A DNA stretch of 64,000 bases from Strigamia acuminata. Lineage: Eukaryota; Arthropoda; Chilopoda; Geophilomorpha; Linotaeniidae. Where the stretch lies: contig OX442314.1 of NCBI GenBank assembly GCA_949358305.1, positions 60,149,369-60,213,368 on the forward strand, given 5' to 3'. The first letter of the stretch is position 1; each line of letters opens with the position of its first letter. Both the position numbers and the translations under genes were made by a program. This document shows positions 13,720-41,976 of the stretch, piece after piece. The notes below the pieces were generated by a model that made no database searches, had not been told where the DNA came from, and worked only from the letters and a program-made list of their open reading frames with translations.

Positions 13720-13744
13720 GAGCTCAGACCGTGGGGCTGAGCGA

Positions 13745-16510: not shown

Positions 16511-17357
16511 CTGGAAGGATGGAGAAATAAACAATTAATAAAAAGTTAATATTTAAATACGTAGATAAATGGTTGGTTTCGAGGGACGTTGCCAGTACGT
16601 GCAGCCGTCCGTCGAGACCGATTCCTGTCTATCGGTGCAAACGTAGGACGAATTGTCCCTCGTCGGATAGAAAAAGAGAAGTCATCACGTGAAAAATCTG
16701 TCTCATGTCCAAAACGCACAGCGAGACGGAATCGAGCCTTTAATCTGGATTCTTATCATCAGATTTTACTTCAAATTAATTCTAACATTAATTAGAACAT
16801 TACTAATAATTAAATTAATAATTATCAGTCATTCGTAAAAAGAATTCGTCGGGTGTAAATTATTACTAAAATCGCACAATAAATGTGCTTGTCGAAATGT
16901 TATTAAATAAATAAACCTAATAAAGAATTATTCCGAAGTCGGACTTTGTCTAATTTTTAAAAAAGTTAAAGTCAAATTAAATTTATCCAACACACCGAAA
17001 AATTCATCGTACGAATGTTAAGTTGCATCAATTTGATGCGTCAAATTACTTGTGGAGAAAAAATATTCTTTTACAGAATATTCTCCCCTTGTCATAAAAT
17101 TATCTATGGCTCGAGCCCATTGTCTCGCTCGTGACTCAAGTCATGAGGAATTTTCGAGACGCGAGGTGACGTGAAGTCTGCGCTCGCACCTCGAAAACAA
17201 ATTAACAAGGAAAAAAAATACGATCGTGTGAGCGATCGCGGTTAATAATTAATTATACGCTATTTCGAGTGCAAAGCACTCATGTCAGGTATTAGTCAAC
17301 AAAATTTCTTCTTCAGCAGCACGGAACTAGTTCTCATGTGCCGATGCCGACTTCTAC
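16511..17357 (-). other. Predicted ORF3 intron of gypsy B (847 bp)
   Basis: Donor GATCAG|GTAGAAG at 17358/17357 and acceptor TTTCTCCATCCTTCCAG at 16511/16510, both phase 0. AT-rich, stop-filled, between two open exons. The acceptor has a clear polypyrimidine tract. Confidence 0.7.
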
Positions 17358-17447
17358 CTGATCGGGCTGGACTTGGTTTACATCGCGGTCCCAGTTTTCC
17401 TCGTCCTCGTGCTCGATGGCCAGCACGTCGTTCTCTTCCTCGTCCAT
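17358..17447 (-). CDS. ORF3 exon 1 of gypsy B (30 codons)
   Basis: Very acidic peptide starting MDEEENDVLA and containing DEENWDRD, ending CAG|GTAGAAG. The ENWD core and splice position match exon 1 of A and F although the rest is diverged. Upstream ATG context GCCATGG is favourable. Function unknown. Confidence 0.7.
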
Positions 17448-17923
17448 GGCGAGGAGCGCGCACAAAAATCTCAATCACGATTTAAAAAGGATGATAAAAC
17501 TATCTCAAAAACTCGGTGAAAAACTCGGTAAAACGTTAAAAACGAGGATCACGCACGAATGCAGCGATCAGCTGTGAAAAGCGGAAGTCTGTGTGAACAC
17601 GAGGTAATCGCGATGGATTCTGGGTAATATACTCCAGAACCCGGGTGTTTGAGACTAGTGCGCACCTACCCGTGCGCATGTTACGCTACGGGTCTCCTTT
17701 GTTCTCACTCCCGTGCGCGATTGCTGCTACGGGGTCTTTTGCACGCGGTATCCGACCCGTGCCGATAATTTTGCTACGGGTCCCGCGTTTCCACGCCATC
17801 TCGTGACGCGAATTCGACCGATATCCGCTTTGTTGGACTTAGCGAAATTTTCTGCGACGTGATGGCTTGCACTATCGGTCGATTACATTTATTTTTAGTG
17901 CCGCCATCGACTCGTAATTTATT
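17448..17923 (-). promoter_or_regulatory. Conserved pol-ORF3 spacer of gypsy B with three inverted-repeat motifs
   Basis: Three copies of an imperfect inverted repeat of form CCCGTGC...GCTACGGG lie at 17669-17694, 17710-17736 and 17756-17782. Copy 1 is closely matched in A and in part in F. The block AATTTCGCTAAGTCCAA (complement of ~17829-17850) is shared with A and F. No open frame crosses the stretch. A likely regulatory region for ORF3; whether it is a promoter or a protein-binding RNA is not shown. Confidence 0.55.
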
Positions 17924-20900
17924 TTACTTCTTTCCTACGACCTTTCCGCCTTTTATGAACGGATTATCTCTTTTTGGTCGCAGGTTACGGATCGAGGCAG
18001 GTACGATATTTTTTGTTGTTTTTTGTGTCTGTACCTCCTCATTATTGTTTTCTTTTTTATCCGTGTTTTTTGTGTTTGTTTCAGGAGTTTCTCCTGTTTC
18101 CCCCCCGACCAAAATTGGATCCGGAACGGATTCAACTATCTCGTTTACCGGAGGTGAAGGGGCGTCGAAATACTCCTCGTTGTCACTTGGCGGTGCTTTT
18201 TCCGACTCGCCAGCGAACATATCGACGATTTGGCCGTCAGTTTTAGACTTGACTTGGCCTTTGGCCCACATTTCTTGCGGGAATTCCGGAATGTACGGAG
18301 TTAACTCTCGTACTTGTATCGACTTATGCTCGGTGTTGTCCTCGAGCTTGCGTAATTTATACGCGTTACCGCCATGCTTGCCGATGATCACATACGGACC
18401 ATCTCTCTTGTCGGCCAAGCTGGCGGTGATTCCTCTCGCTGCATTTGAGAGGATGTGTGTGTCCTTCCACACTAAATCATTGTTCTCGAAATTCACAAAT
18501 TTTCCACCGCTTTTATCTTGTAAAATGCGGTCGCGCATGTTAAAAATGTGCGCCATCATATGTTTGTATGTGCTCGAAATTGTTTGCTCCAATTTATATA
18601 CATACTCATGTGGTTTCTCTGGGTCCACCACATTTACCGACTCTGCCACTCGTGGGTCCCAAGGCACTCGTAGCTCTCGGGCGAAGTTGAGGTAGGCCGG
18701 AGAAAAATCTCTCGTCCTCGAGACTGTTGTTCGTATGCTGAACGCGATCTCCCTCAAGTATTCATCCCACCTATTGTGGATGTCAGTGAATATGCTTAGT
18801 GCATATTTAATGTCCCTGTTGAGTCGCTCAACGGGATTTGTTCTGGGATTGTAGGTCGAAGTATGTGACGCCACAATCCCGAATTTCTCACAAAACTTAC
18901 CCCAAATTTTCGAGATAAATTGGGGTCCGTTATCGGATATAATTTTACGTGGAAATCCGTAACGTAACGCCACGTCGTAGATACATTCAACGATTTTCTC
19001 TGCTGAAGGTCTAGCGACGGCGTACAACTCGGGCCAACGAGTTGCCACGTCCATTATAACGATAATGTACGCATTTTTATTTCCCGTAACGGGTTTTGGG
19101 CCCATCACATCGACACTTAAACAATCAAAAGGCGCGTAAGGCCCTAAGAAAATAGTTTCGAATGGTGATTTACTCCTCGGCTTGCACGCTTGACATCGCT
19201 GACATTGGTGGACAAAAAGAGCAATATCTTTTTTCATCCCTGTCCAGTGAAAAAGCTGTGTAGCACGATAGAGTGTTCTGCTTACTCCCGCATGGCTCGC
19301 AAGCGGGTGCCCGTGTAACAACCACAGCACGCGACCGATTAAGGAAGCAGGTATTACTACCTTTACTGCGGTGTCCGATTCACTCAAGTCATCTTGGTGA
19401 TTTGGGTGATGTTTCACTAAAAGGCCGTCATCCAATAGGTAATCTATGGATTCGTGTGCATAACGACGCTTCTGCCTTCTGGTTAGATTGGGCGGATATT
19501 TTCCTGTCAGTACGAATCTAGCTCTGTCCTGACATTTCTTGTCTAATTTTTGTTGCACAATTATTTCCTCCCTTGTCGGGGGACTGCTTTGCATCTGCTC
19601 GCCGACATGAGCGTGGAAGGCGCTTAGAAGCGGGTCATTTATTCTCCGCTCTAGCTTAAATTCCTTCCTTGCATTTGGGTAATTGTCAGCAGCTGGTTGG
19701 TATAACCGCGTCCAAAATCCACAGAATTTTACATCTGCCGGAGACGCGGTGGGAATTTCATTCATCTTCCTTAAATCCCAACGGTGACAACTCGTAGGGC
19801 AATAAATGATGCGGGAGTCATCCTCGCCATCATCGTCAGCGTCGATTGGATCTGACACTGGTGCCCGTGACAGAGCGTCAGCCACGACGTTATATTTGCC
19901 GGGCTTGTATTGAATGGTCAAGTCGCATGCCATCAGTTCTAACTGCCATCTGGCTAGTCGACCGGCTGGCTCTTTTAATTTCATCAGCCATTGTAACGCT
20001 TGATGATCTGTGTGGACCACAAATTTGGTATATTCGAGATAATCTCTGAATTTCCTTATGGCCCACACAACGGCCAAACACTCCAACTCGGTGGCATTGT
20101 AATTCTTTTCAGCGCCTTGGAGTTTGCGACTTATAAACATGCACGGCAGGTCTTGTTCGACTCCGTCGCGCACGTGTGTTTGGAGCAACGCCGCTCCTAA
20201 CCCAACTCTGCTGGCGTCCGTGTGTAATATGAACGGCCGGTTTAAGTCGGGTAGAGGCATTACGCCGACTTCCGTCAGCATCCTCTTTATTGCATTAAAT
20301 GCGATGTTGCACTCATTTGACCATACAAATTCGTTTTCATTCTTCAGGAGGTCGGTAACTGGGGCTGCCACTTCAGCTAGACCCGGTAGCAACCTGCCGA
20401 AGAAGTTTATCATTCCCATAAACCGTTGGACACCTTTAACGTCCTCGGGTGGTGGGAAACGATTAATCGCATCGATTTTTTCGGGGCCAATAGCTAAACC
20501 ATTGACTCCAATGCGATAACCCAGGAAGGCAAGCTCCTTTCGACAGAACTTGCTTTTGCCCGGATGCACGTGTAACCCAGCTTTTGCCAGCCGGGTGAGC
20601 ACTTGGTCGATGTGCTCAATGTGCTCTTCGAATGTTTTAGAGGCAATAACTATGTCATCTAGGTATGCCCACACAAACTGATGCAGGATATCACCCAATA
20701 CGCTTTCGATTAGTCTCTGAAAGGTACTGGGAGCATTCACTAAACCAAATGGCATGACGTTGAACATCAACCGTCCAATTGGCGAGTAAAATGCTGTTTT
20801 TAACTTATCCTCTGGCCTCATCTCAACTTGCCAGTATCCCTTCGACAGATCCATCGTCGTAACCCAAGAAAAGGGGCTAAGCTCTCTCAAAATGGATTCG

Positions 20901-22050
20901 ATAGACGGCATCTGTATGGGATCTATTTCTGTCACCGCGTTTAATGGGCGGTAATCAATGCATAGGCGTGGGTCCGAGCCCGGGCGCATCACGAGCACAA
21001 CTCGCGTCGCGTATTCTCCCTGGGCCTCGGAGACAATGCCACTGTCTAGCATTTCTTGGCACATTTTTTGCACTATTTCACGTTTTTGCGGGTTCATTCC
21101 CTTATACGCAACTCGTATAGGTTTATTATCCGTCAATTTAATTTCGTGAATAGCCCTATTCGTTCGGCCCGGTTTTTTCGACAGGATCCCCTCATATTTA
21201 AGTAGGACCCTTCGTAGGGCTGCCGCTTCGTTTAATTCTAAAGCGGCGTCGGCGACAAGCGTTTCCACTACATTGTCCCGTTGCAATTCTGTTACGAATG
21301 CTTTAAAATCGTAATCTTGAACGAATTTCTTTAGGCCTTTCTCCCACTGTGTCTTGTCGGCCGCTTCTTTTACAAGAGCTGGTGGCACGACAATTGCGGG
21401 TCTTTCCTTATCATTTCTGATATAATTCCAAGATTTCGTTATTGGATTGGGTTGTATTTCCATTGACGCCATGAGGTCTAAGCCCAACAGAAAAATTCTG
21501 TCGCATGTGGGCAGGACCAGGAAAGGGTGCTGTTCTACTCCTCCGAGCCACTCCATGGTCAATAATATAACTCCTTTTGGACGCGCCATTCCGTTGGCGG
21601 TTTTTAGACGTATATTTTTATTAACGCCTTTTATCTTATCGGTGAGACCCAATGATGCTACTATGTCTTCGGAAACGAACGAGCGATCTGCTCCCGAGTC
21701 TAGTAGTCCCATAATTTTTTCACGTTCTATTGTCATGGGCAACATACATAGGCGGTTGGTGTATTCGACCGCCACGTTGCACATGAAAACACGAAATTCT
21801 TCTGTGTCTTCGACTACTTGAGGTAATTCTTCAAGCAGTAGGTTCGGTTCTTCCGCCTCAGCCTCAGCGTTTGCGGTAATTACCTGCAAAGCGTTGTTGG
21901 CCCTGTCTTGAATTTGGGCGTTAGCTATGTCACTACCCATTTCTTTGACTGGTGGCGGCTTATCGAACCCTTTGTTAAACCCCTTCTTCTTCATGAATGG
22001 CGCAGACGGTCGAGAAGTTATTTCTTCGCCGCCTGCGCTGACTCGTTTTT
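17924..22050 (-). CDS. pol: pol of gypsy B (protease, RT, RNase H, integrase)
   Basis: Intact replication polyprotein; the first ATG is at 21994 (1356 codons) but the -1 frame is open back to the slippery sites, so it is probably made as Gag-Pol. Residues counted from that ATG: retropepsin LLDSGADRSF ~93-102; RT with WAYLDDIVIAS (YLDD ~444-447); RNase H HTDASRVGLG ~588 and TDHQAL; integrase zinc finger HGHPLASHAG ... CQRCQAC ~895-940; catalytic D (DVMGP ~963), D (DNGPQF ~1020) and E (VERLNRD ~1056), D-E spacing about 35; GPY module DGPYVIIG; tail NLRPKRDNPFIKGGK. Gene order PR-RT-RH-IN defines Ty3/gypsy. No chromodomain is visible. Confidence 0.95.
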
Positions 22051-25000
22051 TGACTCGTTTTTTGCCATGGCGAGTTTAATCTCTGCCATCTGCTTCATTA
22101 TTGCGTCAAATTTAGCGTCTTCTTTCGCTGTTCTTGGGCACTCATTGGAATAGTGACCCGGTTGGTTACACTTGAAACAACGAATATTTGATTTGTCTCT
22201 TGGGGCTTCAGTCGATTTTTTCTTTTCAGGGTCTGCTTTCGACGGTGGCGTGTAATTTTTTCGAAAATACTTCGGAATTCGACCGGCATTTGGTTTTAAC
22301 CTGGCGCGAAATTCTTCTACCGCTCTATCTCGATGGATGAGATGTACTAGCGGTCCTTCCTCATCGCAACCCGTTGATAAGGTATCGCGATAGCTTCGTA
22401 TTTCTTCGTCCGTCGAATAATCGTCTTTTTCTTCTTTTTCGTCTGATTTTCCGACATTTTGTTCGGCTTCCTCCCCCTCCTTGACCTCCTCCAGTGTCGC
22501 TTGCATGGCTGACGCTGTCGGTGCCTTTTTAGGGGCGGCCAAAGGGTTGGAAGGCAGCGGGGATGTCAGTTTATTTTTTATTTGCAAACCAACGCTAGCT
22601 TCTGCCAGCTCCATTATACCGCTAAGATATTCAGTAGGGCGCATAATCTTATCTGTCGCCCCATATCTTTCCGCACTCAACTTGAGACGTTTTGCGGTCG
22701 CTGCTTTCTCCGCTTCTGGTAAAGCGGAATAATATCTCTTCTCGATATCTATCGTGTTCTCGAACAGGAAGGCGCTCATCTCCTCGTAGCTACCTCCTGT
22801 CGGTGCCCTTTCTTCAAGTAGCACCCTTTGCGAGTATTCCGACAAACCGCCGAGAAAGAAAAGGTTGAATCCCGTGGCGTGAAATTCCATCGGGGCCTTT
22901 TCGAACAACAATCTGGCGCGAATGTCGTAATCCATTATGGTTTCACCAGGCATCTGGCGAAGACCTCGCATCTTTCGGCTCACCTCTTCGGGTGTCTCGC
23001 CGTAGCGCAGGTCGAATCTCATTAAAAAGTCGTCCCAATTGACGCCTTTCAATCCTTGGTACCACTCACGTGCCGAGCCTGTCATTAGCTCGACAATACC
23101 GTGGGTGAGCATGTCTCCTACGGTGGCTTTAGTGGCAGTCTTAATTCGAATTACTTCGTCAAGGAAGCGATCTCCCGCTTTCCATGACCCGTCGAAACGG
23201 TTCTGAATATAAAATTGCCACCTAATATTCCCGGTAACACTCATGGTGTCACGTCGGGAGACAGCGTATTTTTTCTTTACGCGGTCACCAGTGCTACGAT
23301 TACGATCGTTTCGTTTGCTCAGATCAATTCCCTCGGCTTTTAACGAGCCGAGTAGGGCTCTTCCAAGCTCTCCCATCGTATACTGCCGACCCGTCGAATC
23401 GGTAAACGCGCTTTGTCGGGGAAGGTCCTGAAACTCCTCCCGTCGGTGGTCGCTATTTTCCGATCGACGTCGTTTCTCTCTATCGCGCGGAGAGTTGGAT
23501 CTCTTCCGGCGATTACTTGATTTTTCCTTTCGTCTGTCGTCGTTGGATGAGGGGTCGGAGCTGGGGTCGGGAGACGGTGAGCGGCGTGGCGGGTTGCGCC
23601 GTGAAGAGTTTGACTCTTTCCGGCCCCTACGACGGTCGTCACGTTCCCTTTCTCTGCGTTCATCGCGTTCTCTTTCCCTTCGTCTTTCTCCGGAACCTCT
23701 CTCCGAATCGTGATGACTGGGTGCATTTGACTCCAGTCCATCTGACGACGAATCACTATTTCCGTAGTGAAAATATTTCGGTCTTTCATCGCGTTTGCCT
23801 TCTTCTCGCGAAGAGGTGCGATCATGCGATTGTCTCCTTGACGACTCGTCGTCTTTAAGGATGGGCACTGGTTGTTGCCACTCAGTCCCTTGTGGATTAT
23901 CATGCTGTTGGCTTGTGAGAGCTTGCTCTTCATTTCGCCTAGCATTATTAGCGTTGATTAATCGCGTTATCGCATTATTTGTGGCTGAATCGAGAGCTTG
24001 CATGCGGGGCCGAGTTTGTTGTTCTCTGGCCGACGCATCTCTCTTGCGCGGAGTAGCTGGTGTTGCTCTCTCCGGCTGGGGTTTGGGTTTGGCCTTCGGC
24101 GTGCGCTTTGGGTCTCCCTCTAGGCTCTCGTCGGACAGCTCGGATGAACTGACCTCTGGTTTGCGGACGGATTTCGGGTCATCTCGTCGCAATCTGGCCA
24201 TAAATGCTCGCTCTGCTTCTTGTTGCGAGTGGAAAGCATATCGATGTGCTCTCAGGGCTCGGTCAACTATTTCTACCTCCTCGGGAGTAGTCGGATTGGG
24301 CTGGGTTCTGCCGTACTCGAGAGCTTGCGCTTCTCTTTCCGCCAGCTTCCTCCGTCTCTCGCGAATGGCTTGACGAGCCTCGTTCTCTGCATCCGCTTCA
24401 AATTGAGCGGAATCAACCAATTGTTGAGCGTGTGCACCTTCAACAATGGTGATTTGTGGGGATACACTGTGCGCTTTTAAAGCTGCACGTACGATCCGTA
24501 ACGTTTCGTACACGGTAATTTTCCCCGTCGGAAGGGTGTATCTCACTCCTTCCGCCTGTGCCAATTGCATCGCATCAATCAAGGTGCCCGAGACGCTGTA
24601 AGGCTGGCTCGAAACACGCTTGACAGAGGATGAGTTGGACTTGTGTCCTTCGGACCTGACCGAAGCTGGGCGGCTTTGCGTAATTGGCGTGTTTAGTGCC
24701 GAATTAGCGGTCGTATTTGAGGCCGTCTTTTGTATCGGAGACGCTGCTTTCGGACTGCCCACCTCGGTGTCGTGCGTTAGACGAGGCGATTGGTTACGGG
24801 ATAAAACCTCGTTTCCGCTCGTCTCGCCGTCACGGTTAGAACGCGGCAGTTTGGAGTGAGATTGCTCTTCACCCCGCTCTGTCTCGTCCAATCGCTGCCT
24901 CGTCTCGGTGCGAGACGGGTGCGATGCCTCGGATGCGCTTCTACGATCGGGTTTAGGCTTACGCCGTTTTTGCCTCGCTTCGTGCGCTGAGGCTTTGGGT

Positions 25001-25101
25001 AAGGGACCTCCAGATCGCAAGTGATAGTCGGCGCCTTTACGACTGCCGGCTCTCTTGTTTGCGTCGGAGTCGGAATCTGTTACTCGGGTATTATCTGCCA
25101 T
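22018..25101 (-). CDS. gag: gag of gypsy B (1027 codons)
   Basis: The open frame starts nine codons earlier at 25128, but the ATG at 25101 (MADNTRVTDSD) lines up with the gag start of A. The N-terminal motif DYHLRSGG matches A. The middle (~440-560) is an Arg/Glu/Ser-rich region of alternating RERE and RS dipeptides resembling an SR/RE domain, in place of the coiled coil of A. Capsid region from TMGELGRALL (~585) with REWYQGLKGVNWDDFL and RYGETPEE. Zinc knuckle CFKCNQPGHYSNEC (~972-985). It is intact and serves as the reference showing where A is broken. Role: particle assembly and genomic RNA packaging. Confidence 0.93.
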   Translation of the reverse strand: MADNTRVTDSDSDANKRAGSRKGADYHLRSGGPLPKASAHEARQKRRKPKPDRRSASEASHPSRTETRQRLDETERGEEQSHSKLPRSNRDGETSGNEVLSRNQSPRLTHDTEVGSPKAASPIQKTASNTTANSALNTPITQSRPASVRSEGHKSNSSSVKRVSSQPYSVSGTLIDAMQLAQAEGVRYTLPTGKITVYETLRIVRAALKAHSVSPQITIVEGAHAQQLVDSAQFEADAENEARQAIRERRRKLAEREAQALEYGRTQPNPTTPEEVEIVDRALRAHRYAFHSQQEAERAFMARLRRDDPKSVRKPEVSSSELSDESLEGDPKRTPKAKPKPQPERATPATPRKRDASAREQQTRPRMQALDSATNNAITRLINANNARRNEEQALTSQQHDNPQGTEWQQPVPILKDDESSRRQSHDRTSSREEGKRDERPKYFHYGNSDSSSDGLESNAPSHHDSERGSGERRRERERDERRERERDDRRRGRKESNSSRRNPPRRSPSPDPSSDPSSNDDRRKEKSSNRRKRSNSPRDREKRRRSENSDHRREEFQDLPRQSAFTDSTGRQYTMGELGRALLGSLKAEGIDLSKRNDRNRSTGDRVKKKYAVSRRDTMSVTGNIRWQFYIQNRFDGSWKAGDRFLDEVIRIKTATKATVGDMLTHGIVELMTGSAREWYQGLKGVNWDDFLMRFDLRYGETPEEVSRKMRGLRQMPGETIMDYDIRARLLFEKAPMEFHATGFNLFFLGGLSEYSQRVLLEERAPTGGSYEEMSAFLFENTIDIEKRYYSALPEAEKAATAKRLKLSAERYGATDKIMRPTEYLSGIMELAEASVGLQIKNKLTSPLPSNPLAAPKKAPTASAMQATLEEVKEGEEAEQNVGKSDEKEEKDDYSTDEEIRSYRDTLSTGCDEEGPLVHLIHRDRAVEEFRARLKPNAGRIPKYFRKNYTPPSKADPEKKKSTEAPRDKSNIRCFKCNQPGHYSNECPRTAKEDAKFDAIMKQMAEIKLAMAKNESKNESAQAAKK
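22045..22063 (-). promoter_or_regulatory. Tandem -1 frameshift sites of gypsy B
   Basis: Two copies of A-AAA-AAC in the gag frame (complement of 22057-22063 and 22045-22051), 12 nt apart, created by repetition of the codons for KNES. The gag stop follows at 22018-22020 and pol is in the -1 frame, open through both sites. A and F have one site each. Confidence 0.85.
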
Positions 25102-25153
25102 TTCTTGCTTTGGGTATGATGTAATCACAGGTTAGAATCAGTTATTCGACTTG

Positions 25154-25171
25154 ATCCCGGACAGGCCCCCA
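25154..25171 (-). promoter_or_regulatory. Primer binding site of gypsy B, tRNA-Pro-like
   Basis: On the minus strand TGGGGGCCTGTCCGGGAT, two bases after the 5' LTR; identical to the site in A. Confidence 0.8.
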
Positions 25172-25173
25172 CG

Positions 25174-26191
25174 TGTCGCGCTCAACTCTAACCGTCGCTA
25201 ACTCGTGGGTTGATTACTTAATTCGACTAACTCACTACCGCTTTGCTCAAGCGGTTTACCCAAAGAAATGATTACACAGATATAAAAGGTAAAATATAAT
25301 ATAGATTTATTCTGCGGGGCAATGTACAGATATATCTTATATATATATCTATAAAGGGTAAGTAAAATGTAAATCGGAATGGGTGAAGGGAAATGGAAAG
25401 GTAAAGGTATGATGAAAGCTGGCTGGAATCGGCGAGGTCGTCTGTTGTCTCGGTCGTGTCCAAGATGGCGTCCTCGTTGTGGCAACGTGGTGTCGTCTTG
25501 GGCCGGCGTGGCAATATGGCGTCCTCGGCTCGTCTCTGGCTGGTCCTTCGGGCTCACGCTGGTCGGGCGCGAGTGAATGCTTAGTTAAAAGGCTTACTTC
25601 GGGCTGTTGTCTAGGTTTTTGTGTGGTGTCCGGCGATCACACAGCGGCGGACTCTTCTGGCTCCCGGCGGTCACACAGCGGCGGGAACGCTCGTCGTGGT
25701 TTTACTGCAGTTTAGGCTTGTGCGACCGTTTGTCTGCACAACTCGCTAAACTGGAGTGGTTTTTACTATTTCTAGCTGGTGTGCTAAAATAGTGTGGTAA
25801 TCTTATCTCGCAGGTTACTCTGCGGAGTTTGACACTGACCAAACGTACTCACGGTAAATTGTCCTTTGTCCTTGGTCAATCCCAGTATATTTACTTGGGC
25901 CTGATCTTGTAGGACGACGGGTTTTACGTGTGTTTCTCGTTTGATGGTTGTGTTGGTTCTGCCCGCTCAGTGCAAGGCACATTCCTTTGCACAAAGCGGG
26001 GTCGACAGGTGACCGGAATCACCCAATGGTGGGGTGGACGAGCCATCCCCACTCCCTCAGGGCAGACGCCTGTCCATTGACTAGATGTCAATGCACTGAG
26101 GGAAGGGAGACGCGCTTGCGGCTCCCCTTACACCCGAAACGAGGTCACGAGAGAAACTCTTCGTTGACCCCGGTCCAGTCGGGTCACAACA
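25174..26191 (-). repeat. 5' LTR of gypsy B
   Basis: 1018 bp copy matching 12691-13708 with no difference seen. Same internal motifs. Confidence 0.95.
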
Positions 26192-26195
26192 GAAT

Positions 26196-26395
26196 AAATC
26201 TATTTGGTTATACTAATAGATTTGTTCTCGTTGTTACTCTGTAACCTGAGTTGAGATCAAATAGCCTCAACCCAGATCACTTGTTTTATGCTTTCATGGT
26301 GAATAAAGATGGCGGTCGCGTGTTGCGAACTAACCGCACTTTATAATCGGTTTGCAAGTTATTTCCGCATGCTCCAGGTCCAAATACGCTCTTCA
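26196..26395 (+). repeat. 5' LTR of copia C, second fragment
   Basis: Last 200 bp of the LTR, after the duplicated GAAT (26192-26195). Carries GAATAAAGATGGCGG, combining a polyadenylation signal and an AAGATGGCGG motif (~26299-26312). Ends CTCTTCA. Confidence 0.93.
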
Positions 26396-27512
26396 AATGG
26401 TAGCAGAGGATCGGCGACGACCAGCGCCGGCCAATTTTAGAAGAATTGAAGAGAAACGGACATTTTTCGACTCCAAGAAGTCGCGAAGTGCGCGCCCGCC
26501 CAATTCGTCGTGAAAACGAATTTTCGGTGCGGCAAACGTCTGGATTACGTGTGCGGACCATTCTGCAAAGGAATAGGATTCCAACGGTGTAAGGAATATT
26601 TATTTCGAACGATTTAAACTGTATTTTTGCCGATATAACCGAGTTTTCTCGGGCGGCGCCATTTTTGTTGAGCTTCGCTGCAGAATACGGCGAAGTTAGT
26701 GTGTCTACGCGTGTGTACGGACCGGCACACGCACGCCCAACGATTCTACAACGGAATACGTCGACAGGACGGTATTTTGGAGCAAAGAAGCGTCCCAAAA
26801 CCGTCAATTTTTTCGAGAAATCACCGTGAATCGACGATTTTGTTACGGTGGCCATTTTTCGTCAAAAATAGACGGAAAAACGACGATTTGATTCACCGAG
26901 AAGTCCTGCACACGATAAGCGTGTGTGTGGGCAATTGTTTCCGTACCTCGCACCAGGAAAGCGAGTACGAAGGCGCAGACGGGCGCTACGACGATTTTCT
27001 CCGCGCTTACACGGATGTGTGTACGCGGATTGCACGTCGGCCCCAGTTCCGTGCGAAGACAACGTGAAGCCGACGTTTAATTCAACGTGGGAACCAGTTA
27101 CGACGCGTGAAACCCGTAACTGGCCAACTTCACATCGGAAACTGTATTTTTCGAATTTTTCTCGTGAAACTCTGTTATTTCTTAAGGTTTTTGTGTTGGG
27201 TCACTTAGAATATTCTGTACCCTTCGGGCAGTCGCCCCAGTACAGTCTCATTCCAGTCTGGGCTTGTCCGTGGCCAACTAGTCGTCCCGCGTCCCCCAGG
27301 TGGGCCGGTCGGAAGCTAGTAGGGCGACCAGATTTGGGTTTTTCATCTCACTTATTGAGGTGCCCCTTGGGAAGTGTAAAATTATTTCGCCTTCAATTTT
27401 TGGGGGCAAATTGCTTCTCCGTGCGACATATTCACGTGTATTGTGAATATTTATGTTTTTCTTCTGAAACTTGTGAAAAAGTGTTTTGTGCTACATTACT
27501 CGGAAATCCAGA
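26396..27512 (+). other. 5' leader of copia C with primer site
   Basis: The primer site TGGTAGCAGAGG (from 26398) fits the 3' end of initiator tRNA-Met for the first 11 bases. The remaining ~1.1 kb has no Gag-like frame: the missing first ~115 residues of a copia Gag are not found here in any frame. A 214-codon open stretch at 26923-27567 is low-complexity leader, not a gene. The leader ends with a structured RNA region (27205-27360). Confidence 0.7.
27205..27360 (+). promoter_or_regulatory. Conserved structured leader RNA of copia C
   Basis: Helix I: CTGTAC (27215-27220) with GTACAG (27240-27245), inner GGGC-AGTC-GCCC (27226-27237). Domain II: CCAGTCTGG (27253-27261) with CCAGATTTGG (27328-27337), and inner ACTAG (27277-27281) with CTAGT (27316-27320). 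Hairpin III: CTCA/TGAG (27347-27359). The same order occurs in E and G with different paired sequences. Function unknown; packaging, dimerisation or translation control are options. Confidence 0.75.
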
Positions 27513-30500
27513 ATGGCACTGCCGAGATTTGAGAGAGCACAATTGCGACGGCAGTTCCTGGATTTAAAAATGAACGACAACGAAACAATGCGTGAATTTT
27601 TAGATCGTGTGGACCAAAAAGCGATCGAGGTTAACAATGCGGGTTTGGACTTGACTCCAATTTTCGTCATTTTCCAGTATATGGATGGCGTTAGACTTGA
27701 ATTTGAGGCCTGCAAATTGAAGATTGATGCTTTACTGCAAGAGGACGTCACTCTAGAAAGAGTTAGACAGATATTCTTGGATGAATATGACAGGTTGCAT
27801 CCCCCACCAGTCCAGCCGATGGATACGTCATCTGACACGGATTTCTCCAGCGGAGATGAACGGGATGAAGACCGTGGAATGGGGGCTTCATGTATACAGC
27901 AACCATCGGCGCATTATGCGGCAACGCAATGCCAAATTGTCAAATCAGGAATGGATTCTCCACCTAAACAGCAACAAGGTGCTACGAGAGGAAACCCGAC
28001 AGGACAGTTCAGCAGGGGCAGCCAACGCGGGAAGAGTCGTGGGAAGAGCCAGCAGACGGCCAACGTCACGCAAATGGACATTTTTAGCAATTCCCCGGTG
28101 TCTTATTTCTCCGCAGCGATTTGCCAAGAACAACCCCCTGTTGTAGTGTCTTTATTGTCGCATGCGAACTACGATTCGCAATGGTACGTCGACACAGGTG
28201 CGACGGACCACTTTTCGTTCAACAAAACCTGGTTTTCGGACTTTAAACCATTGACTGGTTATTCTGTTCAACAAGGAGACGGAAAGTCGAAAATCGAAGG
28301 CATTGGAAATGTGACTTTAGTTTCGATTAATGGACAACAAACACGTGAACTAACGTTGAAAAACGTTTATTACGCACCCAACTTCAAAAAGAATTTGATT
28401 TCTTTAGGTCGTACGGATGAAGCTGGGGCGACAACCATTGTGAAGAATGGTAGAATGTTTATTTATGATGTGACAATTGATGACCCTTCTATCACTGCGA
28501 TCCGTACGAGTGATAGGATGTACAAAGTCAATTGTCGCATTAATGCAAAGAATTCTGTAAACACTGTTGCATTGTCTGCGCAACAGAGTGCAACAGTGGC
28601 ATCTAGTCCACCTTTAGCGGGTGAAGAAATTGTTAAATCTTTACTAACACACGTTGATTTTAGAACCGCATTAACCCAAAATTTGAGTAAATCAGGGAAA
28701 CCTGTACCTGCGAATGAGGGGCAAGCGAAAACTGCGAATAATGCGCCAGCGATCGTTGCAAACAATGCGAGTATGGGAATTTCGAATCAACAATCGAGTG
28801 TTTTGAATGACACACAGTCTAGCTTAGTGGCCAGCAAGGGCAATAAGCCCAAGGATGCGAAAATTTTGAGAACAATTGTGCAAAACAATTTAACAAATGG
28901 AAATGGGGTTGTAAATGGAAAGAATACTCCCATTAAACCAGATAAACCCCAAACGATGGACATCTGGCACTCTCGGATGGGACACCTTAATGCAAAGGGA
29001 ATTGCATTGTTAAACAAATCTACTGAAGTGTTTGGTTTAAAGTTGTCCAACACGGAATTGTCGAGTTGTGATGCTTGTTCGAGGGCGAAGAGCACACGTG
29101 CCAGTTTCCCCCCCATTGTGAACATTTCGACCAAAGGGATTTTAGAAATCGTCCACTTAGACGTGTGGGGACCTTCACCAGTTAAGAGCATAAGTGGGGC
29201 GTACTACTATTTGGTCATGGTCGATGACTTTTCACGATTGATGTGGATCGTGATTATGAAGAAAAAGAGCGAAGTTTTGGGCCATTTTAAAAAGTGGTTA
29301 ACCGAAATTGAAAGGACAACTTCTAGGAAAGTCAAATCTATTAAAACTGACAATGGAGGGGAATTTGTATCCAAACAATGGGATGAATATGCCGGTGGCA
29401 TTGGACTGAAGTGTATGCGGACGAACGCATACAGCCCTGAGATGAACTCAGTCGCTGAAAGAACGAACCGGACTATTCTTGGTGGAATCAGAGCTTTGAT
29501 GATTGAAAATAGTCTTCCCCCATCCCTGTGGGCAGAACTTGCAGTTTCTGTCGTTTATTTGAAAAATCGGTTTCCACATGCGGGATTGGGGGGAAGAACG
29601 CCTTATAATGTATTTTTCAACAAGAAATTGTCCCTTCGGCACGTCAAGTGCATTGGTGCATTGACTTATGTACATGTCCCTTCACAAACCAGAGCGGGGA
29701 AATTGCAAGAGAGAGCATGGGCGGGGGCTTTGATTGGATACGCCTCTACTACTCGTGGGTATCGGATTTGGGATCCGAATAGAAACCAAGTTTTTCTCTC
29801 AAAACACGTTAAAATTTTGGAACAGAATTTCTGGTACGAGAAGGTAAAGAATCCCCAAGCTGGCCCATCACCTGCTACTGACGATTCAGATTTATCAGGT
29901 GAAGAGTCTTGTAATGACTCTGACACAGACAGTGTTCATAGCGAACCTATCCCCGAGGAAGAGGTCAAAGTGGTTGAAAAACTCGTAGAGAGACCCATTC
30001 AGGCCAGACCACCTGGGGGACCCGACTATGTAGATGCCATGCAATACATCATTGGAGATATACATGGCCTAAATTTTGATGAAATCGGTGGGGCGAAGGG
30101 GGATGATAGGGATTTCTTCAATATTTATCCCGACGACGATGAAGGAGAAGTTGAAGAGGAAGTTGAGGACCCAGATGCAAGTCCTCAATTGTCGCCCCAA
30201 TTGTCACCCACACCCCCTCGTCGGAACCCGCCTAGAAAAGGGAAAGACATTGGCGAACGCACAGCTTCAACGAGTGACTTGTTGCCTCTAGATATGACTT
30301 TGTGGCAAAGACGGCAGACTGTACGTCAAAGCGGGGCAACAGCTGGGAAAGTTGATGTTTGGTACATCACACCAAAGCACGAGAAGCTCCGCAGCCGTGT
30401 TGAGGTTGTCCGTTGGTGCAAAGCCGAGGGATATGAATATAAATCGGAATTGTTTAACTTCAAAGATGTGACTATCGGTTTTGCTGGTTGCTGCTCTGTC

Positions 30501-32051
30501 GAGCCGGACACGTACGAAGAAGCGGTCAAAGGCGCCAGCAAACCTGATTGGGAAAACGCGATGGAAGACGAAATAAATATCTTCAAAGAGCGTGAGGTTT
30601 ATGTCGAAGTCGACAAAGACCAAGTTAAAGACAAAACCTTATTGGGATCAAAATGGATATACAAGTTAAAAAGGGATCACACGGGTACAATTAGAAGATA
30701 TCGTGCTCGTCTTGTTGCACAAGGCTTCAAGCAGAAGCCAGGCATTGACTTTACTGAGGTATTTTCCCCAGTAGTCAATTTTGTGTTAGTCATGATGTTC
30801 TTCTGTGTCTTAGTGGTACTGAGGGGCTGGCGTGACGTACACCTTGACATTAAGGCCGCATACCTATATGGGGACCTCGACGAAGTGCAATATATCCACA
30901 TCCCAAAAGGATATCGAACGACTGAAAACCAACACAAATGTTGGGAATTGAGAAAGTCTCTTTACGGGCTCCATCAGTCTGGTCGTATGTGGTACCAGCG
31001 ACTCCACGACCAGCTGATTGAAATTGGATTTGAACCGGTCTTGGGTCTCAATTGCGTGTATAGCTTGGGCACTGACGCTATACTTATTTTCTATGTCGAT
31101 GACATTGTATTGTTTTCAAAAGACAACATAGCAGAGGAGTGCGTTTTGGATTGGATTCAACAATCATTTGAGATTGTCAATTTGGGCCCCGTCACCCTTT
31201 TGTTAGGGATAGAGTTTTGTAGGGACGGGGAGAATATCTTTATTCATCAACGCGCTTATATTGCAAAGTTGTGTAAGCAATATGGGATTGACTCTTGTCA
31301 TCGTGTTAGAGTACCTGGCACCCCAGGCACCATGATCCAAAAGGTTCAAACGGGGGAACGTGTCAATTCGAGTTTTCCGTATCGGTCTCTTGTCGGCAGT
31401 TTGCTTTTCATCGCATGTCGTACAAGACCCGATATTCTGTTTTCGGTGATAGTGTTGTCTCAATACAACGAGACTCACTCGACTCGACACGTAAATATGC
31501 TGCTCCAAATCTTGCGATACCTAGGGAATACGCCAAATTATTCCATCAATCTTGGAAACTGTCAAAGTGAAAACTTGACCGTTTATACGGATGCGTCCTT
31601 CGCATTAGACCAGGACAAACGTCGGAGCTTTGGTGGGCACATCATCTACCTGGGAGGCGTCCCGATCTCTTGGAACTGCCATAAGCAGACCATCACTGCA
31701 CTTTCCATTATGGAAAGCGAATTCTTGGCGGTGGTAGACGGTGTGAAGGAAATAATTTGGTTAGAACGCATATTTGGTGCTGACGTGATGGTGGATGGGT
31801 TTAACCGGGAAATACCGTGTGTATACGCTGACTCAATGCCAGCGATCCAATATGCGAAGAATCGCATAGAGAATCGCGCAAACAAACACATAGATGTTAA
31901 ACTACATTTCGTGCGCGACTGGTTTGAAAAAGGTGTTTTTCGAATCAGACATATCCCGGGAACCCTTAACGTGGCCGACCTTATGACCAAGTGGCTATCT
32001 CGCGCAAAACTAGATGCATTGTGCGAGCACATTTTCGCAGCGGCAAAATAG
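27513..32051 (+). CDS. gag-pol of copia C, with MBD-like domain and shortened Gag
   Basis: Single open frame of 1512 codons from the first ATG, MALPRFERAQ. Order: a partial UBN2-type Gag (starts at the position of G residue ~108), no CCHC zinc knuckle; retropepsin WYVDTGATDH (~227); GAG-pre-integrase IWHSRMGHLN; integrase core with DVWGPSP, TDNGGEF, AERTNRT (D,D,E); an acidic spacer; a methyl-CpG-binding-like domain (~925-985: RQSGATAGKVDVWYITP...LRSR); reverse transcriptase ending with YVDDIVLFS (~1195); RNase H with YTDAS, MESEFLAV, NKHIDVK. Integrase before RT defines Ty1/copia. Pol is complete, but the missing Gag half suggests dependence on another element's particle or a very unusual Gag. 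Confidence 0.93.
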   Translation: MALPRFERAQLRRQFLDLKMNDNETMREFLDRVDQKAIEVNNAGLDLTPIFVIFQYMDGVRLEFEACKLKIDALLQEDVTLERVRQIFLDEYDRLHPPPVQPMDTSSDTDFSSGDERDEDRGMGASCIQQPSAHYAATQCQIVKSGMDSPPKQQQGATRGNPTGQFSRGSQRGKSRGKSQQTANVTQMDIFSNSPVSYFSAAICQEQPPVVVSLLSHANYDSQWYVDTGATDHFSFNKTWFSDFKPLTGYSVQQGDGKSKIEGIGNVTLVSINGQQTRELTLKNVYYAPNFKKNLISLGRTDEAGATTIVKNGRMFIYDVTIDDPSITAIRTSDRMYKVNCRINAKNSVNTVALSAQQSATVASSPPLAGEEIVKSLLTHVDFRTALTQNLSKSGKPVPANEGQAKTANNAPAIVANNASMGISNQQSSVLNDTQSSLVASKGNKPKDAKILRTIVQNNLTNGNGVVNGKNTPIKPDKPQTMDIWHSRMGHLNAKGIALLNKSTEVFGLKLSNTELSSCDACSRAKSTRASFPPIVNISTKGILEIVHLDVWGPSPVKSISGAYYYLVMVDDFSRLMWIVIMKKKSEVLGHFKKWLTEIERTTSRKVKSIKTDNGGEFVSKQWDEYAGGIGLKCMRTNAYSPEMNSVAERTNRTILGGIRALMIENSLPPSLWAELAVSVVYLKNRFPHAGLGGRTPYNVFFNKKLSLRHVKCIGALTYVHVPSQTRAGKLQERAWAGALIGYASTTRGYRIWDPNRNQVFLSKHVKILEQNFWYEKVKNPQAGPSPATDDSDLSGEESCNDSDTDSVHSEPIPEEEVKVVEKLVERPIQARPPGGPDYVDAMQYIIGDIHGLNFDEIGGAKGDDRDFFNIYPDDDEGEVEEEVEDPDASPQLSPQLSPTPPRRNPPRKGKDIGERTASTSDLLPLDMTLWQRRQTVRQSGATAGKVDVWYITPKHEKLRSRVEVVRWCKAEGYEYKSELFNFKDVTIGFAGCCSVEPDTYEEAVKGASKPDWENAMEDEINIFKEREVYVEVDKDQVKDKTLLGSKWIYKLKRDHTGTIRRYRARLVAQGFKQKPGIDFTEVFSPVVNFVLVMMFFCVLVVLRGWRDVHLDIKAAYLYGDLDEVQYIHIPKGYRTTENQHKCWELRKSLYGLHQSGRMWYQRLHDQLIEIGFEPVLGLNCVYSLGTDAILIFYVDDIVLFSKDNIAEECVLDWIQQSFEIVNLGPVTLLLGIEFCRDGENIFIHQRAYIAKLCKQYGIDSCHRVRVPGTPGTMIQKVQTGERVNSSFPYRSLVGSLLFIACRTRPDILFSVIVLSQYNETHSTRHVNMLLQILRYLGNTPNYSINLGNCQSENLTVYTDASFALDQDKRRSFGGHIIYLGGVPISWNCHKQTITALSIMESEFLAVVDGVKEIIWLERIFGADVMVDGFNREIPCVYADSMPAIQYAKNRIENRANKHIDVKLHFVRDWFEKGVFRIRHIPGTLNVADLMTKWLSRAKLDALCEHIFAAAK

Positions 32052-32068: not shown

Positions 32069-32533
32069 TGTTGGTTTGCGATGAATTATTTGCGATTATC
32101 ATATTTGTTGTGCATTTCCGAATAGGCACAATAAGCGCGTTACTTCATATATTGTTACGAATGGTCAGCCAGTTGTTTCTGCTTTTTAAACTACGCTTGT
32201 TTCGTACTCCAACTGGCTGTGTCTATGTGATAACGCGCGTCCCGTCGTCTGCTTGTTAAGCGACGATCGTTTAATTTGGTTTGGTATTGTTTATCCATTA
32301 CTTTAGTCTTTACGTTGTATTATTGTAAAGAATAAATCTATTTGGTTATACTAATAGATTTGTTCTCGTTGTTACTCTGTAACCTGAGTTGAGATCAAAT
32401 AGCCTCAACCCAGATCACTTGTTTTATGCTTTCATGGTGAATAAAGATGGCGGTCGCGTGTTGCGAACTAACCGCACTTTATAATCGGTTTGCAAGTTAT
32501 TTCCGCATGCTCCAGGTCCAAATACGCTCTTCA
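32069..32533 (+). repeat. 3' LTR of copia C
   Basis: 465 bp, TGTTGG...CTCTTCA; preceded by the purine tract GAAGGGGGA and followed by the CAGAA duplication. AATAAA lies next to AAGATGGCGG at ~32438-32450. Confidence 0.95.
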
Positions 32534-37529: not shown

Positions 37530-39031
37530 ATGGCGGATGCGATTTCGGGCGGTTCGTTGAATCGGATTGATCTTCTTACACCGGAGAACTACTTCATCTG
37601 GCAGTTTAAGGTTGGAACTTTATTAGCAGCTAAAAGTTTGAAAAATATGATAACGGATCCAGCGGTGGTAGAACCGAAGGTGGGCAATGCAACTTATGCA
37701 GACGATCTCGTGAAATACAACACATGGGTGAAAAACAACAACGAGGCACTCGGCATCATTATTTTGACCGTTTCGAACGAGGAAGCGACGAATTGCATGG
37801 GGAAAACCAGTGCAAAAGAAGTTTGGGATGCGTTAAAAGCGCTGTACGCCGGAACGACGGAAGAACGTCAAATCGACGCGGCGGCGGAATTGTGCGAATT
37901 ACGTATGAAACACGACGAGGGAGTGGACAGCTACTTAAACAGGGCAAAGTCAATTCAATCGAGAGCCAAGGCAGTCGGACGTGACATAAAAGATCGCGAA
38001 TTGATGATGTACGTGACGCGTGGTCTCGTGACAAGATTTTCCCACATTGCGAGGAATTTTCGGTCGAATGCAACCGCAACAATAGAAGAATTGCGTTGTG
38101 AATTAAAAATGGAGGACCAATGGTCAACGTTTAATTCGAAAGGAGCGGCGACGGAAAGCGGGACAGTGGCATTCAAGGCACAAGTCGGAAAAAATTCGGG
38201 AGGCAGGAAAACAAAAGGTGGGACAAAATTTGTTTGTTATGAGTGTGGCAAAAGTGGCCATATTGCCAAAGACTGTTGGCAGCGCCATCCAGAGAAGCGC
38301 CCCACGAAAATGACGCAGAGACCGAAGGAGGCGGCAAAAATGGCGCAGGCCGAAGTGGAATTTGCAACAATACAACACGCGCTAGTGGTTGAATTGGAAT
38401 CCAGCGATCACCTTGACAACTGGATTTTAGATTCAGGAGCTTCTGTGCACATGTCAAGCAAGCGCGAGTTGTTTAAAACATTTGTTGAAATGGAGACAAC
38501 AATAACCACAGCCAAGAAAGGTGTGAAGCTTCTAGCGACAGGAAAAGGAAGCATAATTTTGGATTGTCAACTCGATGGAGAGGCAACAATGAAAATTTTG
38601 CTACAAGACGTGCTCTTTGTTCCAGAGCTGAAGGGGAACTTGCTCTCAATTCCGCGCTTGACGGCAAAGAATTACACCGTACAATTCAGGGGAAACTGGG
38701 CGGACATTAATAGTCCAGTTGGAGAGACGATTGGGAAGGGAGCAAAATGTGGCACCATGTATTTATTGCAACTGAAAAAGGAAGAGCAAGCGAATGCGGT
38801 CGCCATGACAACTAAACAAACCAAGGAAATATGGCATAAACGATTGTGTCATGCAAACGAGCGAACAATCGACAAGATGACCAACAAAGAATTGGTTTAC
38901 GGGTTGGAGTATAACAATGCATCATTGGAGAAGTGCACCGCGTGCGTACTCGGAAAAATGACAAAGAGCCCGTACAAACGAATAAACGAGAAGCAGTCGG
39001 ATGATGTTTTACAACTAATACACATGGATTT
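37530..39031 (+). CDS. gag-pol of copia D, first part (interrupted)
   Basis: ATG at 37530, ~125 bp after the primer site. UBN2-type Gag (YFIWQFKVGTLL ... AKEVWDALKALYAG), zinc knuckle CYECGKSGHIAKDC (~38236-38277), retropepsin WILDSGASVHM, GAG-pre-integrase IWHKRLCHAN, and the first integrase residues up to HMD, where the Asp is the first catalytic residue. The frame is cut by element E; the nine codons or so after the junction in the raw sequence belong to E's LTR. It resumes in frame at 44741 when one GATTT copy is removed. Confidence 0.9.
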
Positions 39032-39507
39032 TGTTGGGATTTGGAGCAAGCACATGGCGTCAGCCTGTTGATGTCGCATGTTTCCGGTTAAATGCGACCG
39101 CGATGCATCGAGTTTGTTGCCGTATCTTGTCCTGAAGTTGTGAGTCGCTTGTTCTGGATTTTATCTTGAGTGTTATGGTATTCCAAGCGGCTTATATAGC
39201 GCGGTAATCATTTGTTGTGTCGCCTGCTCAAAAGAGCTTATTGTTTGATTTGTTTTGGCTGCTTATCGATTGATAATGCCACCATTTAGTTGCTTTTTAT
39301 GTAAAGGACAAATCAATGTTGATTATCCATTGATTTGTTCTCTTGTTTTATGTATTTGACTTGTGAAGAACAAATCACAAGCCAAAGCCACTTGTCTTTA
39401 TGATTTGGCAGAATAAAGATGTCTGCCACCATGACTTATGGTTTAGGCAAGTTTGAAAACCATGTCTCGCTCTTTTAGTCTGCACTCACAGCGATTATGG
39501 ATCAACA
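39032..39507 (+). repeat. 5' LTR of element E
   Basis: 476 bp, TGTTGGGATTTGG...GATCAACA, with GAATAAAGATGTCTGCC near 39411-39427 (polyadenylation signal). Confidence 0.95.
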
Positions 39508-41355
39508 ATGGTAGCAGAGGATGGTTTTCGTGAGTGCTACGTTGGTTTAACGCCAAAATTCTAATTCGCGACGATTTTCTGCCCGGGAACGTCTTGTGCG
39601 CGTCGACGAAGTTTACCGGAGCGGCGGGCGGCACTCGAGTGACGATTTCCCCGCACGGCGACCGAGATTCGCGTGCTTGGTTCGGCAGTGAAGTCGGCGA
39701 ATTGCGACCAGAGGAGCGAGAGCGGTTTTTCAACGGATTTCGACGGGAAACGAGTCGAAATCAGCTTTGGACATTAGCCAAAGACAGTAAGGACATTGAG
39801 AATTATATTTCTGAATTTATTTGGCAGTTTATAAGCCATTTTCGTCGTTTGAAATCCCGATGGCGCGTCATTTCAAAATGGCGGCGCCCAGCACCGTTCG
39901 TGTTTAAGGAGCGGATTTGCACTGATAAGTGCATTCAACGTTTGCCAACGCCGAAATAAACGACTTGGAAACGTTGACAAGACGTAGGTCAGCCGGGACG
40001 AGTGTTTTGAGACGAATTGGCGAAGGATTTTCGCCAGGACGACGTCCTGAAGCGACGGGATCGTGTATAGCGACGACGGAGACGTTTTGAAGCGTGTTTC
40101 AACGATTTGGACGAGCCTTATCGACTGGAATATCAACGTGAGAGTTGATAAACGTGGCAAGAATATTTGCAGCCGTGGTAGGCATCGATTGGCATCGAAA
40201 TCATCATTTTTGGCGCGACGAGACACGCTACGAATTAGCGTCGTCGCATTCGACCCTAAAGTGTCGAAATACCAACGGATTTCAACGTGAAATCGCGTGG
40301 ATTAACGTCTGGAACGACGAAGGATTGCCAAAAGCCAAAAGGTTTTTATTATTTGTTGAAAATAATCATTTTTCTTGTGTTTTTGCCGAGATGTGCAGAA
40401 AAGCCACATCCAAGATGGCGTCGCCCATCGCGATACGAGTTTGAGGCCGCGTTTAGACTGTTTACGGGCCGAGAAGTGGTCACAAACGCTAGGATTAGCA
40501 ACGTGGGGCCACATTAAGAGCCAAGGAATCGATTGGACCGGTTTGGAGTCGAAACGGACCATTTTTCGTCGAAAACAAAGCATTTTCCGGCGGCGACGAG
40601 TGAAATTGGATTTCGCAACGTTCAGAAGACGTCGCTCATCGTAATTGAGCATTTCTACGTTGGATAACGTCGGGTAGACGTTCAACGAAGCCGCGGCAGA
40701 CGTCTGGACGACGTCACGGAATTGTTGGCAAACATTTCGAGTTCTTTTGGACGCGTTTGGTGCGACGGGCACAAACGCATCGCGGATTTGCACGTAGAGT
40801 GTATCTGCGCAACGAAGGGACTGGTTAAGTCTTGTGCCGGGTGCACAAGTGAATTACAACGATTCAAGCGACGTTACAACGGCGTCAACGTGGGATTTTG
40901 CGACGCAAAAGTCCCGCAAAGAAGACAACTTGCCAGCAAAGTGTTTATTTTTATTTCTGGGTTGTCGTGAAACTTTGTATAGAGTTTAAGTTTTTGTTTT
41001 GGGGTCCCTTTGTTTGTTTTCCGCCCTTTACGCAGTCGCGTAGCGGAATCCTATTTCCACACAGGCTTTCCCTGGCCACCGAGTGTCCCGCGGTCCTAGG
41101 AGTCCGGTCGGAACTCGGGGGATACTGTGTGGAGTTTGTCATCTCACTTAGTGAGATTAGCCCACGGGAAGTTTTGTATTTTCGCCTTATTTTTGGAGGG
41201 AAAATTAGTGTTTTTGTGAATTTTCAAAGTGCATTTAGTGAAAGTGCAGCAATTGACTAGTGAAAATGTGTTTTGTGCCGTCACTAAATTTATTAGTGAG
41301 TCTAGTATGGTTGCAGTGTACGAGTTTTGTGCGCACAGTGTTTTGTGCGACAAGA
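39508..41355 (+). other. Long 5' leader of element E
   Basis: Primer site from 39509. The rest has many short frames and none recognisable; it contains TCGAAA/GACGAT-rich low-complexity sequence and CAAGATGGCGTCG near 40408. The end holds the conserved structured RNA (40991-41160). Confidence 0.6.
40991..41160 (+). promoter_or_regulatory. Conserved structured leader RNA of element E
   Basis: Helix I: TTCCGC (41019-41024) with GCGGAA (41043-41048), inner TACGC-AGTC-GCGTA (41029-41042). Domain II: CCACACAG (41057-41064) with CTGTGTGG (41125-41132), inner CCGAGT (41079-41084) with ACTCGG (41113-41118). Hairpin III: ATCTCAC-TTA-GTGAG (41141-41155, extends to 41157). Same layout as C and G. Confidence 0.78.
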
Positions 41356-41976
41356 ATGTCTGTAACAGACAATGTGAAGGCCTGCAACAAACAAACAATG
41401 GATGGTACACACGTGGCTCAATTGAAGACGGAAACACACGAACAAACTGTCTTTAACGGACAAACAGTGCATAACGCACCGGATGAACAATTGAAAAAGA
41501 AAATTGATTCTTCTGAAAAAGAATATTTGAAATTGAATCCTGATTTAGATCTGGATAAGATTGTAGTGTTACTAACCCATTTAGCACATAAGAGCGAACT
41601 AACAGGCAACATAGATACTGTGGCAAAGATCATTGCGGATCTTATCTTAGCGATTTGTAAAATGCGTGTGCGTGAAGAGGAAATGAATGGGGCTAGTAAT
41701 GGTAAAGTGCGAGGCACTAACAATGTAAATCAGGGAAATGAAATGGTTGATTCGAATGGGATTTCGGATAACTTGAGTGATTTGAACCTAATCTCAAATG
41801 ATGATGTAGGAAACATCAAAACCCAACATAGACACGGGAATTTAAAATTTTTGAATAAGGTTCAAATGAAAGCTAGCAATGGGAATAAGAAATTGAATTT
41901 CACCACAGTTAAGGTTGGTAACCCTCTTAGTTATGTCAAAACAAAGAAAAGAATTGGATTGTGCAATCACAATTAA
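41356..41976 (+). CDS. Element E ORF1 (206 codons), unknown
   Basis: ATG chosen at 41356 (MSVTDNVKAC) just after the structured leader; the frame is open further upstream but only through leader sequence. The protein is Asn/Lys/Asp-rich and hydrophilic, with no Gag fold, zinc knuckle or protease motif that I can recognise. It occupies the gag position. Ends shortly before ORF2, which is in another frame. It may be a highly diverged Gag or a remnant. Confidence 0.5.
   Translation: MSVTDNVKACNKQTMDGTHVAQLKTETHEQTVFNGQTVHNAPDEQLKKKIDSSEKEYLKLNPDLDLDKIVVLLTHLAHKSELTGNIDTVAKIIADLILAICKMRVREEEMNGASNGKVRGTNNVNQGNEMVDSNGISDNLSDLNLISNDDVGNIKTQHRHGNLKFLNKVQMKASNGNKKLNFTTVKVGNPLSYVKTKKRIGLCNHN

Follow-up and report, generated by a model that had tools for sequence, protein, structure and literature searches.

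A methyl-CpG-binding domain within the Pol protein of one clade of Ty1/copia retrotransposons in a centipede genome

Element C, a Ty1/copia retrotransposon of the centipede Strigamia acuminata, encodes within its Pol protein a module that its profile match and predicted fold make nearly certain to be a methyl-CpG-binding domain (MBD). The domain lies between integrase and reverse transcriptase (RT), is conserved within a single copia clade, and is present in recent copies in the same genome. It is a real, conserved candidate for a targeting module, and apparently an undescribed one. The account we favor, with fair but far from full confidence, is that the domain, acquired once, serves as an integrase-linked tether to CpG-containing host DNA.

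Results

Element C and its neighbors

The window, the whole stretch of DNA analyzed, covers 64,000 nucleotides of the forward strand of contig OX442314.1 (positions 60,149,369 to 60,213,368; assembly GCA_949358305.1). It contains the following features.

12426..12690, + strand: first 265 bp of the 5' LTR of element C, which is split by a nested gypsy-like element
12691..26191, - strand: the nested LTR element, with identical 1018-bp LTRs and target duplication GAAT
26192..26395, + strand: remainder of the 5' LTR of element C; it opens with 4 bp (GAAT) that belong to the target duplication of the nested element
27486..32051, + strand: gag-pol open frame of element C (partial gag, Pol_BBD, integrase, SH3, MBD, RVT_2)
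30303..30467, + strand: MBD domain (PF01429) of element C Pol, from hmmscan, genome profile search and predicted fold
32069..32533, + strand: 3' LTR of element C, 465 bp, identical to the 5' LTR
37530..46880, + strand: copia D, interrupted by element A and used as an outside control
39032..44735, + strand: element A, an LTR element with 476-bp LTRs (99.8% identical) and target duplication GATTT
43833..44003, + strand: MBD-like region of element A, degenerate (15.9 bits, below the cut-off of 21)
47927..54752, + strand: element B, copia, with identical 471-bp LTRs and target duplication GATGC
49253..54073, + strand: gag-pol ORF of element B, 1606 aa, from ORF and domain scan
52310..52453, + strand: MBD of element B (21.8 bits, cut-off 21), with Arg, Asp, Tyr and Arg kept

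The first-pass annotation, made from the letters of the window, had proposed an MBD-like module between the integrase and RT of element C and had named a search with the Pfam MBD profile and a structure prediction as checks. Both bear the proposal out. By hmmscan, PF01429 matches at E 1.6e-10 (40.8 bits against a cut-off of 21), after the SH3-like domain of integrase and before RT, and a search of the whole genome with the same profile recovers the domain at the same place. The predicted fold agrees with MBD/TAM structures, including the beta hairpin and helix expected of them. The annotation had also read a full set of MBD contact residues in element C; here the two arginines and the aspartate stand, but the equivalent of Tyr34 is Trp.

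The domains of element C follow the Ty1/copia order of gag, Pol_BBD, integrase and RVT_2, with a partial gag match that falls below its own cut-off (23.9 bits against 27) and begins at position 80 of the 172-position profile. The gag end of element C is short; in its sibling copy L026 the open frame runs to 1626 codons. Element C is bounded on both sides by the 5-bp target duplication CAGAA; like elements A and B, it has TG..CA LTRs (ends located by BLAST) and 5-bp duplications. The nested element, called gypsy-like by eye from its ORFs rather than from a domain scan, also has identical LTRs, and so both insertions (window positions 12421-32538) look very recent.

Element B has a gag match well above the profile cut-off. 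Element A, inserted inside copia D, combines near-identical LTRs with an MBD-like region from which both arginines and the aspartate have been lost; its long ORF, when scanned, matched SH3 but neither the integrase core nor RT, and the element is likely non-autonomous. Copia D showed no MBD match in its integrase-to-RT part (scanned over the second half, 44739-46877). Long ORFs that look alike by eye recur in or near gypsy-like elements (13745-16534, -; 32611-34761, +; 54698-57334, -), apparently as a third ORF, and elements C and B apparently lie within or beside such frames.

MBD copia elements across the genome

The PF01429 profile was run over the genome to which the window belongs (237.5 Mb), and the best 150 of 1092 first-look candidates were scored. 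All 150 lie above the cut-off, many of them within open frames of 1,500-1,640 codons. Twenty places were fetched with flanks from these 150, and at 18 an MBD and an RT match share one open frame; the other two (L010 and L014) are cut short. LTR pairs were found at 11 of the 20, with identities of 99.4-100%. Seven of these 11 pairs have TG..CA ends together with a 5-bp duplication, which is not independent evidence, since the end-finder favors duplications. By eye the sequences fall into seven groups beside A and B, that is, six besides the group of element C:

C, L026, L027
L015-L018, L022-L024
L013, L019-L021, L028
L025
L011, L012
L009, L010
L014

These further copies, along with the matches to a clade-specific profile described below, rule out the domain as a private oddity of one copy. 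The first-pass annotation, which had seen an MBD in the Pol of a single element, was thus right about the domain, while the feature belongs to a clade.

Public relatives and a single clade

With the query confined to the MBD region (residues 880-1035), a homology search gave 230 candidates, none at E <= 0.01. It succeeded once the query was extended to include RT, and two protein searches retrieved public copia proteins as relatives of the MBD elements. Six of these already carry an automatic PF01429 annotation (P0003, P0005, P0016, P0124, P0125 and P0127), and PF01429 matches at E <= 0.1 in 10 of the first 32. By alignment the module is present in 21 of the 22 nearest public proteins, P0023 being the exception. 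It is degenerate in seven of the 21 carriers (P0006-P0012), a subclade that keeps an MBD-like region in which the residues aligned with the DNA contacts have been lost.

Thirteen public copia MBDs, with no sequence of this genome among them, served to build an HMM. It matches 37 of 144 proteins: all 23 MBD elements of this genome (20 of them preselected by their PF01429 match, and element A weakly, at 2.5e-4) and 14 of 120 public proteins, namely the 13 used in building it plus P0021. It matches neither the other 106 public copia proteins, seven of which are the degenerate relatives, nor copia D. Where both module and RT were matched (34 cases), the module lies 49-104 residues upstream of the RT match. 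Among 84 further proteins the HMM matches seven. A protein from the spider Trichonephila clavipes, P0129, matches it at 1.1e-6 with no Pfam match and with Arg22, Asp32 and Arg44 all lost, and so is weak evidence for that species as a host. A scan of IMG/VR with P0019 gave one pattern match and no relative.

For a tree of RT sequences, 141 of 143 proteins had an RT match, 132 RT pieces exceeded 180 aa, and 8 near-copies were excluded. In the resulting IQ-TREE tree of 124 rows, the 23 MBD rows and the 7 degenerate rows form one clade (support 100/99), with the degenerate rows nested inside it; outside it fall the other 94 copia rows, among them that of element D, which lacks an MBD. The simplest reading of the tree is one gain of the MBD followed by at least one loss of the contact residues.

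Conservation and contact residues

The MBD is a conserved domain within a hypervariable linker. Element C and L016 are 17% identical over the linker, 64% over the MBD and 78% over RT; for distant families of this genome the figures are 4-17% over the linker and 27-43% over the MBD. The segment immediately upstream of RT, at 31-52% between distant families, roughly equals the MBD in conservation. For five close pairs, three of them drawn from the same three copies, dN/dS (Nei-Gojobori) is 0.076, 0.070, 0.063, 0.024 and 0.038 in the MBD, against 0.130, 0.171, 0.146, 0.270 and 0.104, in the same order, in the linker; in RT, where computable, it is 0.031, 0.034 and 0.010. More distant pairs are at or close to saturation; among them, C and L013 give 0.117 in the MBD, and C and L021, with synonymous sites near saturation, give 0.191 in both MBD and linker.

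We take Arg22, Asp32 and Arg44 to be the DNA-contact residues of the MBD, and the equivalent of Tyr34 to be its methyl-sensing residue. Over 34 MBDs, counted with the seven degenerate rows (P0006-P0012) left out, Arg22 is present in 30, Asp32 in 30, Arg44 in 29 and Ser45 in 33, and position 34 is Tyr in 27 and Phe in one (28 of 34 together). Arg22, Asp32 and Arg44 are all present in elements C and B and absent in element A; P0021 too has lost residues aligned with Arg22, Asp32 or Arg44. Position 34 is Tyr in element B and in L025, L012, L009, L010 and L014, so that B has the residue expected of a methyl-selective MBD, while C, with Trp, does not; it is Ile in the L016 group and Val in the L021 group, and these Val and Ile groups are the commonest among the 150 scored PF01429 matches. 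MBD3, which has Phe at position 34, reads CpG with little methyl selectivity. A literature search on Tyr34 and Phe34 returned no relevant work. With Tyr34 replaced by Trp, Val or Ile, CpG reading is a safer proposal than strict methyl reading, which on these residues is doubtful for element C itself.

Insertion sites

Sixty of 107 further places were taken as 601-base 3' windows, and the junction was found in 58; with 10 fetched loci (L014 left out) and the three window elements, this gave 71 3' flanks. They were compared with 20 self-chosen 2-kb windows at round-number places, rather than with flanks of MBD-less copia. Over the first 100 bp, CpG density is 0.078 in the flanks and 0.038 in the control. 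GC content is 0.47 against 0.37, CpG o/e 1.39 against 1.15, and TpG o/e 0.92 against 1.09. The flanks are thus rich in CpG and not eroded, and the targets do not look long-methylated. The richness is regional, spanning 400 bp: CpG density at 20-160 bp exceeds that at 200-420 bp by only 0.0096, with a standard error of 0.0046. Nesting accounts for part of the richness, as the gypsy-like element inside the LTR of element C is CpG-dense in its own right (0.078), and transposable-element (TE) proteins match 33 of the 71 flanks against 20 of 100 control pieces. The 38 non-TE flanks are also CpG-rich (0.067 against 0.035 in non-TE control pieces). Around the target duplications there is a weak palindromic bias, and CG occurs inside 7 of the 71.

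Insertions of three MBD groups fell within 1-Mb islands of other MBD groups in 11 of 50, 7 of 26 and 8 of 30 cases, against 3/32, 1/20, 2/24, 0/20 and 2/43 (0-9%) for five MBD-less copia groups, in a leave-one-family-out count. Because each list covers the 150 best-scored places, the sharing is suggestive only. Groups were assigned for this count by score and frame length in the search lists, without recourse to a tree; ungrouped places, small contigs and C7 were omitted, and places within 30 kb were merged. The element C family had none of its 8 insertions in territories of other MBD groups. Since the groups are relatives, two of them close, a shared integrase feature could explain their co-localization. 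Compared with MBD-less copia, MBD copia is concentrated at some contig ends and on small contigs, with concentrations at C1 60-67 Mb, C6 13-16 Mb and C9 0-4 Mb. These regions were picked after the lists had been viewed, and we therefore rely on the leave-one-family-out count.

Host methylation machinery

The DNA methylase profile PF00145 is above cut-off at five loci of the genome; DNMT1-RFD is matched at four of the five and also at a separate place. The four loci with both matches (C1:11.84M, C1:30.37M, C3:32.74M and C3:35.9M) are DNMT1-like, with stops inside some of the methylase matches that may be introns or decay. Machinery for 5mC is therefore probably present.

Discussion

Profile, fold, conservation across the clade and selection all support the presence of an MBD in copia Pol. 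The most likely account of what the domain does is as follows. The Ty1/copia clade of element C would most simply have gained the MBD once, and purifying selection has kept it where the integrase region ends, some 50-100 residues ahead of RT. There it would act within the C-terminal region of integrase or within an unprocessed integrase-RT protein, binding CpG-containing host DNA and tethering the pre-integration complex to it, much as the chromodomains of gypsy chromoviruses do. Most of the clade keeps Arg22, Asp32, Tyr34 and Arg44 and is likely to prefer methylated DNA; that preference is probably weakened in the C family and the commonest scored groups, where Tyr34 has given way to Trp, Val or Ile. 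Perhaps these groups, like MBD3, read CpG with little selectivity for the methyl group. Tethering to methylated DNA by the MBD-carrying Pol is plausible: the domain sits where a targeting module would be expected, and the two arginines, the aspartate and the tyrosine are retained across most of the clade. A bolder version, which we hold only tentatively, is that host DNA methylation is the beacon for integration and that sublineages were retuned through the changes at Tyr34 to unmethylated CpG-dense DNA, or gave up reading DNA.

Perhaps the MBD fold does not read DNA at all but offers a surface for contact with other proteins or between integrase and RT. Seven relatives keep the region after losing residues aligned with Arg22, Asp32 or Arg44, element A and P0021 also lack them, and the corresponding tail of Ty1 integrase contacts RT, according to the available text of PMC9673352. 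Yet the residues for DNA contact are exactly those that most members keep, and we regard this reading as unlikely, though it deserves more weight than those that follow. Less likely again is action after integration, in which the MBD would bind methylated or CpG-rich DNA of the element or host, compete with host readers and relieve silencing. In its favor are the DNMT1-like genes of the host and the low dN/dS of what is a compact reader module; however, the domain is fused into Pol beside integrase, where a separate protein would seem more natural for such a role. Moreover, the bodies of five fetched elements show no CpG erosion (CpG o/e 1.05-1.20), and hence no trace of heavy methylation against which such a function would work. 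A last alternative, a passenger without function or a linker motif that resembles an MBD by chance, could draw on the shortness of the domain and on the scores of elements B and A, which lie at and below the Pfam cut-off, respectively. It is very improbable given E 1.6e-10, the fold match, the single clade and close-pair dN/dS of 0.024-0.076; chance is ruled out by profile, fold, clade and selection together.

If the tethering account is right, the nearest parallel is among gypsy chromoviruses, LTR retrotransposons that carry a chromatin reader, the chromodomain, at the C-terminus of integrase, some without the reading residues (PMC12786077, PMC3605345, in the parts available). Both features recur here, with degenerate modules P0006-P0012 resembling those chromodomains that lack the aromatic cage. 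Unlike the chromoviruses, element C is a copia, and an MBD reads DNA where a chromodomain reads histones. By membership element C is a copia with a true MBD; by analogy it would function most like a chromovirus, with methyl-selective binding putative. Within its own superfamily, Ty1 offers a parallel: the region that follows its integrase core, as the MBD does in element C, includes a C-terminal stretch that directs integration and binds AC40 of Pol III (available text of PMC9673352 and PMC12786077), and the AC40-binding region also contacts RT (PMC9673352). The Ty1 tail ends disordered and binds protein, whereas the region in element C is predicted to be a folded MBD. Plant Ty1/copia elements lack conserved integration-directing domains, according to the available part of a 2025 review (PMC12786077).

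The domain shares family, fold and DNA-contact residues with host proteins such as MBD1, MBD2, MBD4 and MeCP2, the family through which animal cells detect methylated DNA, and differs from them in being embedded in a retrotransposon Pol and in the change of Tyr34 in the C family and the commonest scored groups. Retroelements have captured DNA-methylation machinery before, in the DNMT-encoding retrotransposons of Symbiodinium and others, but there it was a writer enzyme and here a reader domain; the available text of that report contains neither 'MBD' nor 'methyl-CpG' and mentions copia once, as lacking a DNMT domain (PMC5890265). The first-pass annotation knew of no copia MBD; likewise, a search of titles and abstract openings among the papers listed, in literature lying mostly outside subscription papers and preprints, found no published description of an MBD in a retrotransposon.

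In the available parts of the literature cited, the targeting modules described for LTR elements act by reading histones or by binding proteins. A reader of DNA methylation in Pol would directly link a host epigenetic mark to the behavior of a mobile element. The proposal is directly testable, as the same genome supplies natural variants with and without Tyr34, variants with lost contacts, and MBD-less copia elements, and the clade offers evolutionarily distant MBDs for the study of methyl-CpG selectivity. These findings suggest that, for the MBD elements, the choice of where to insert or persist may involve reading a mark on host DNA.
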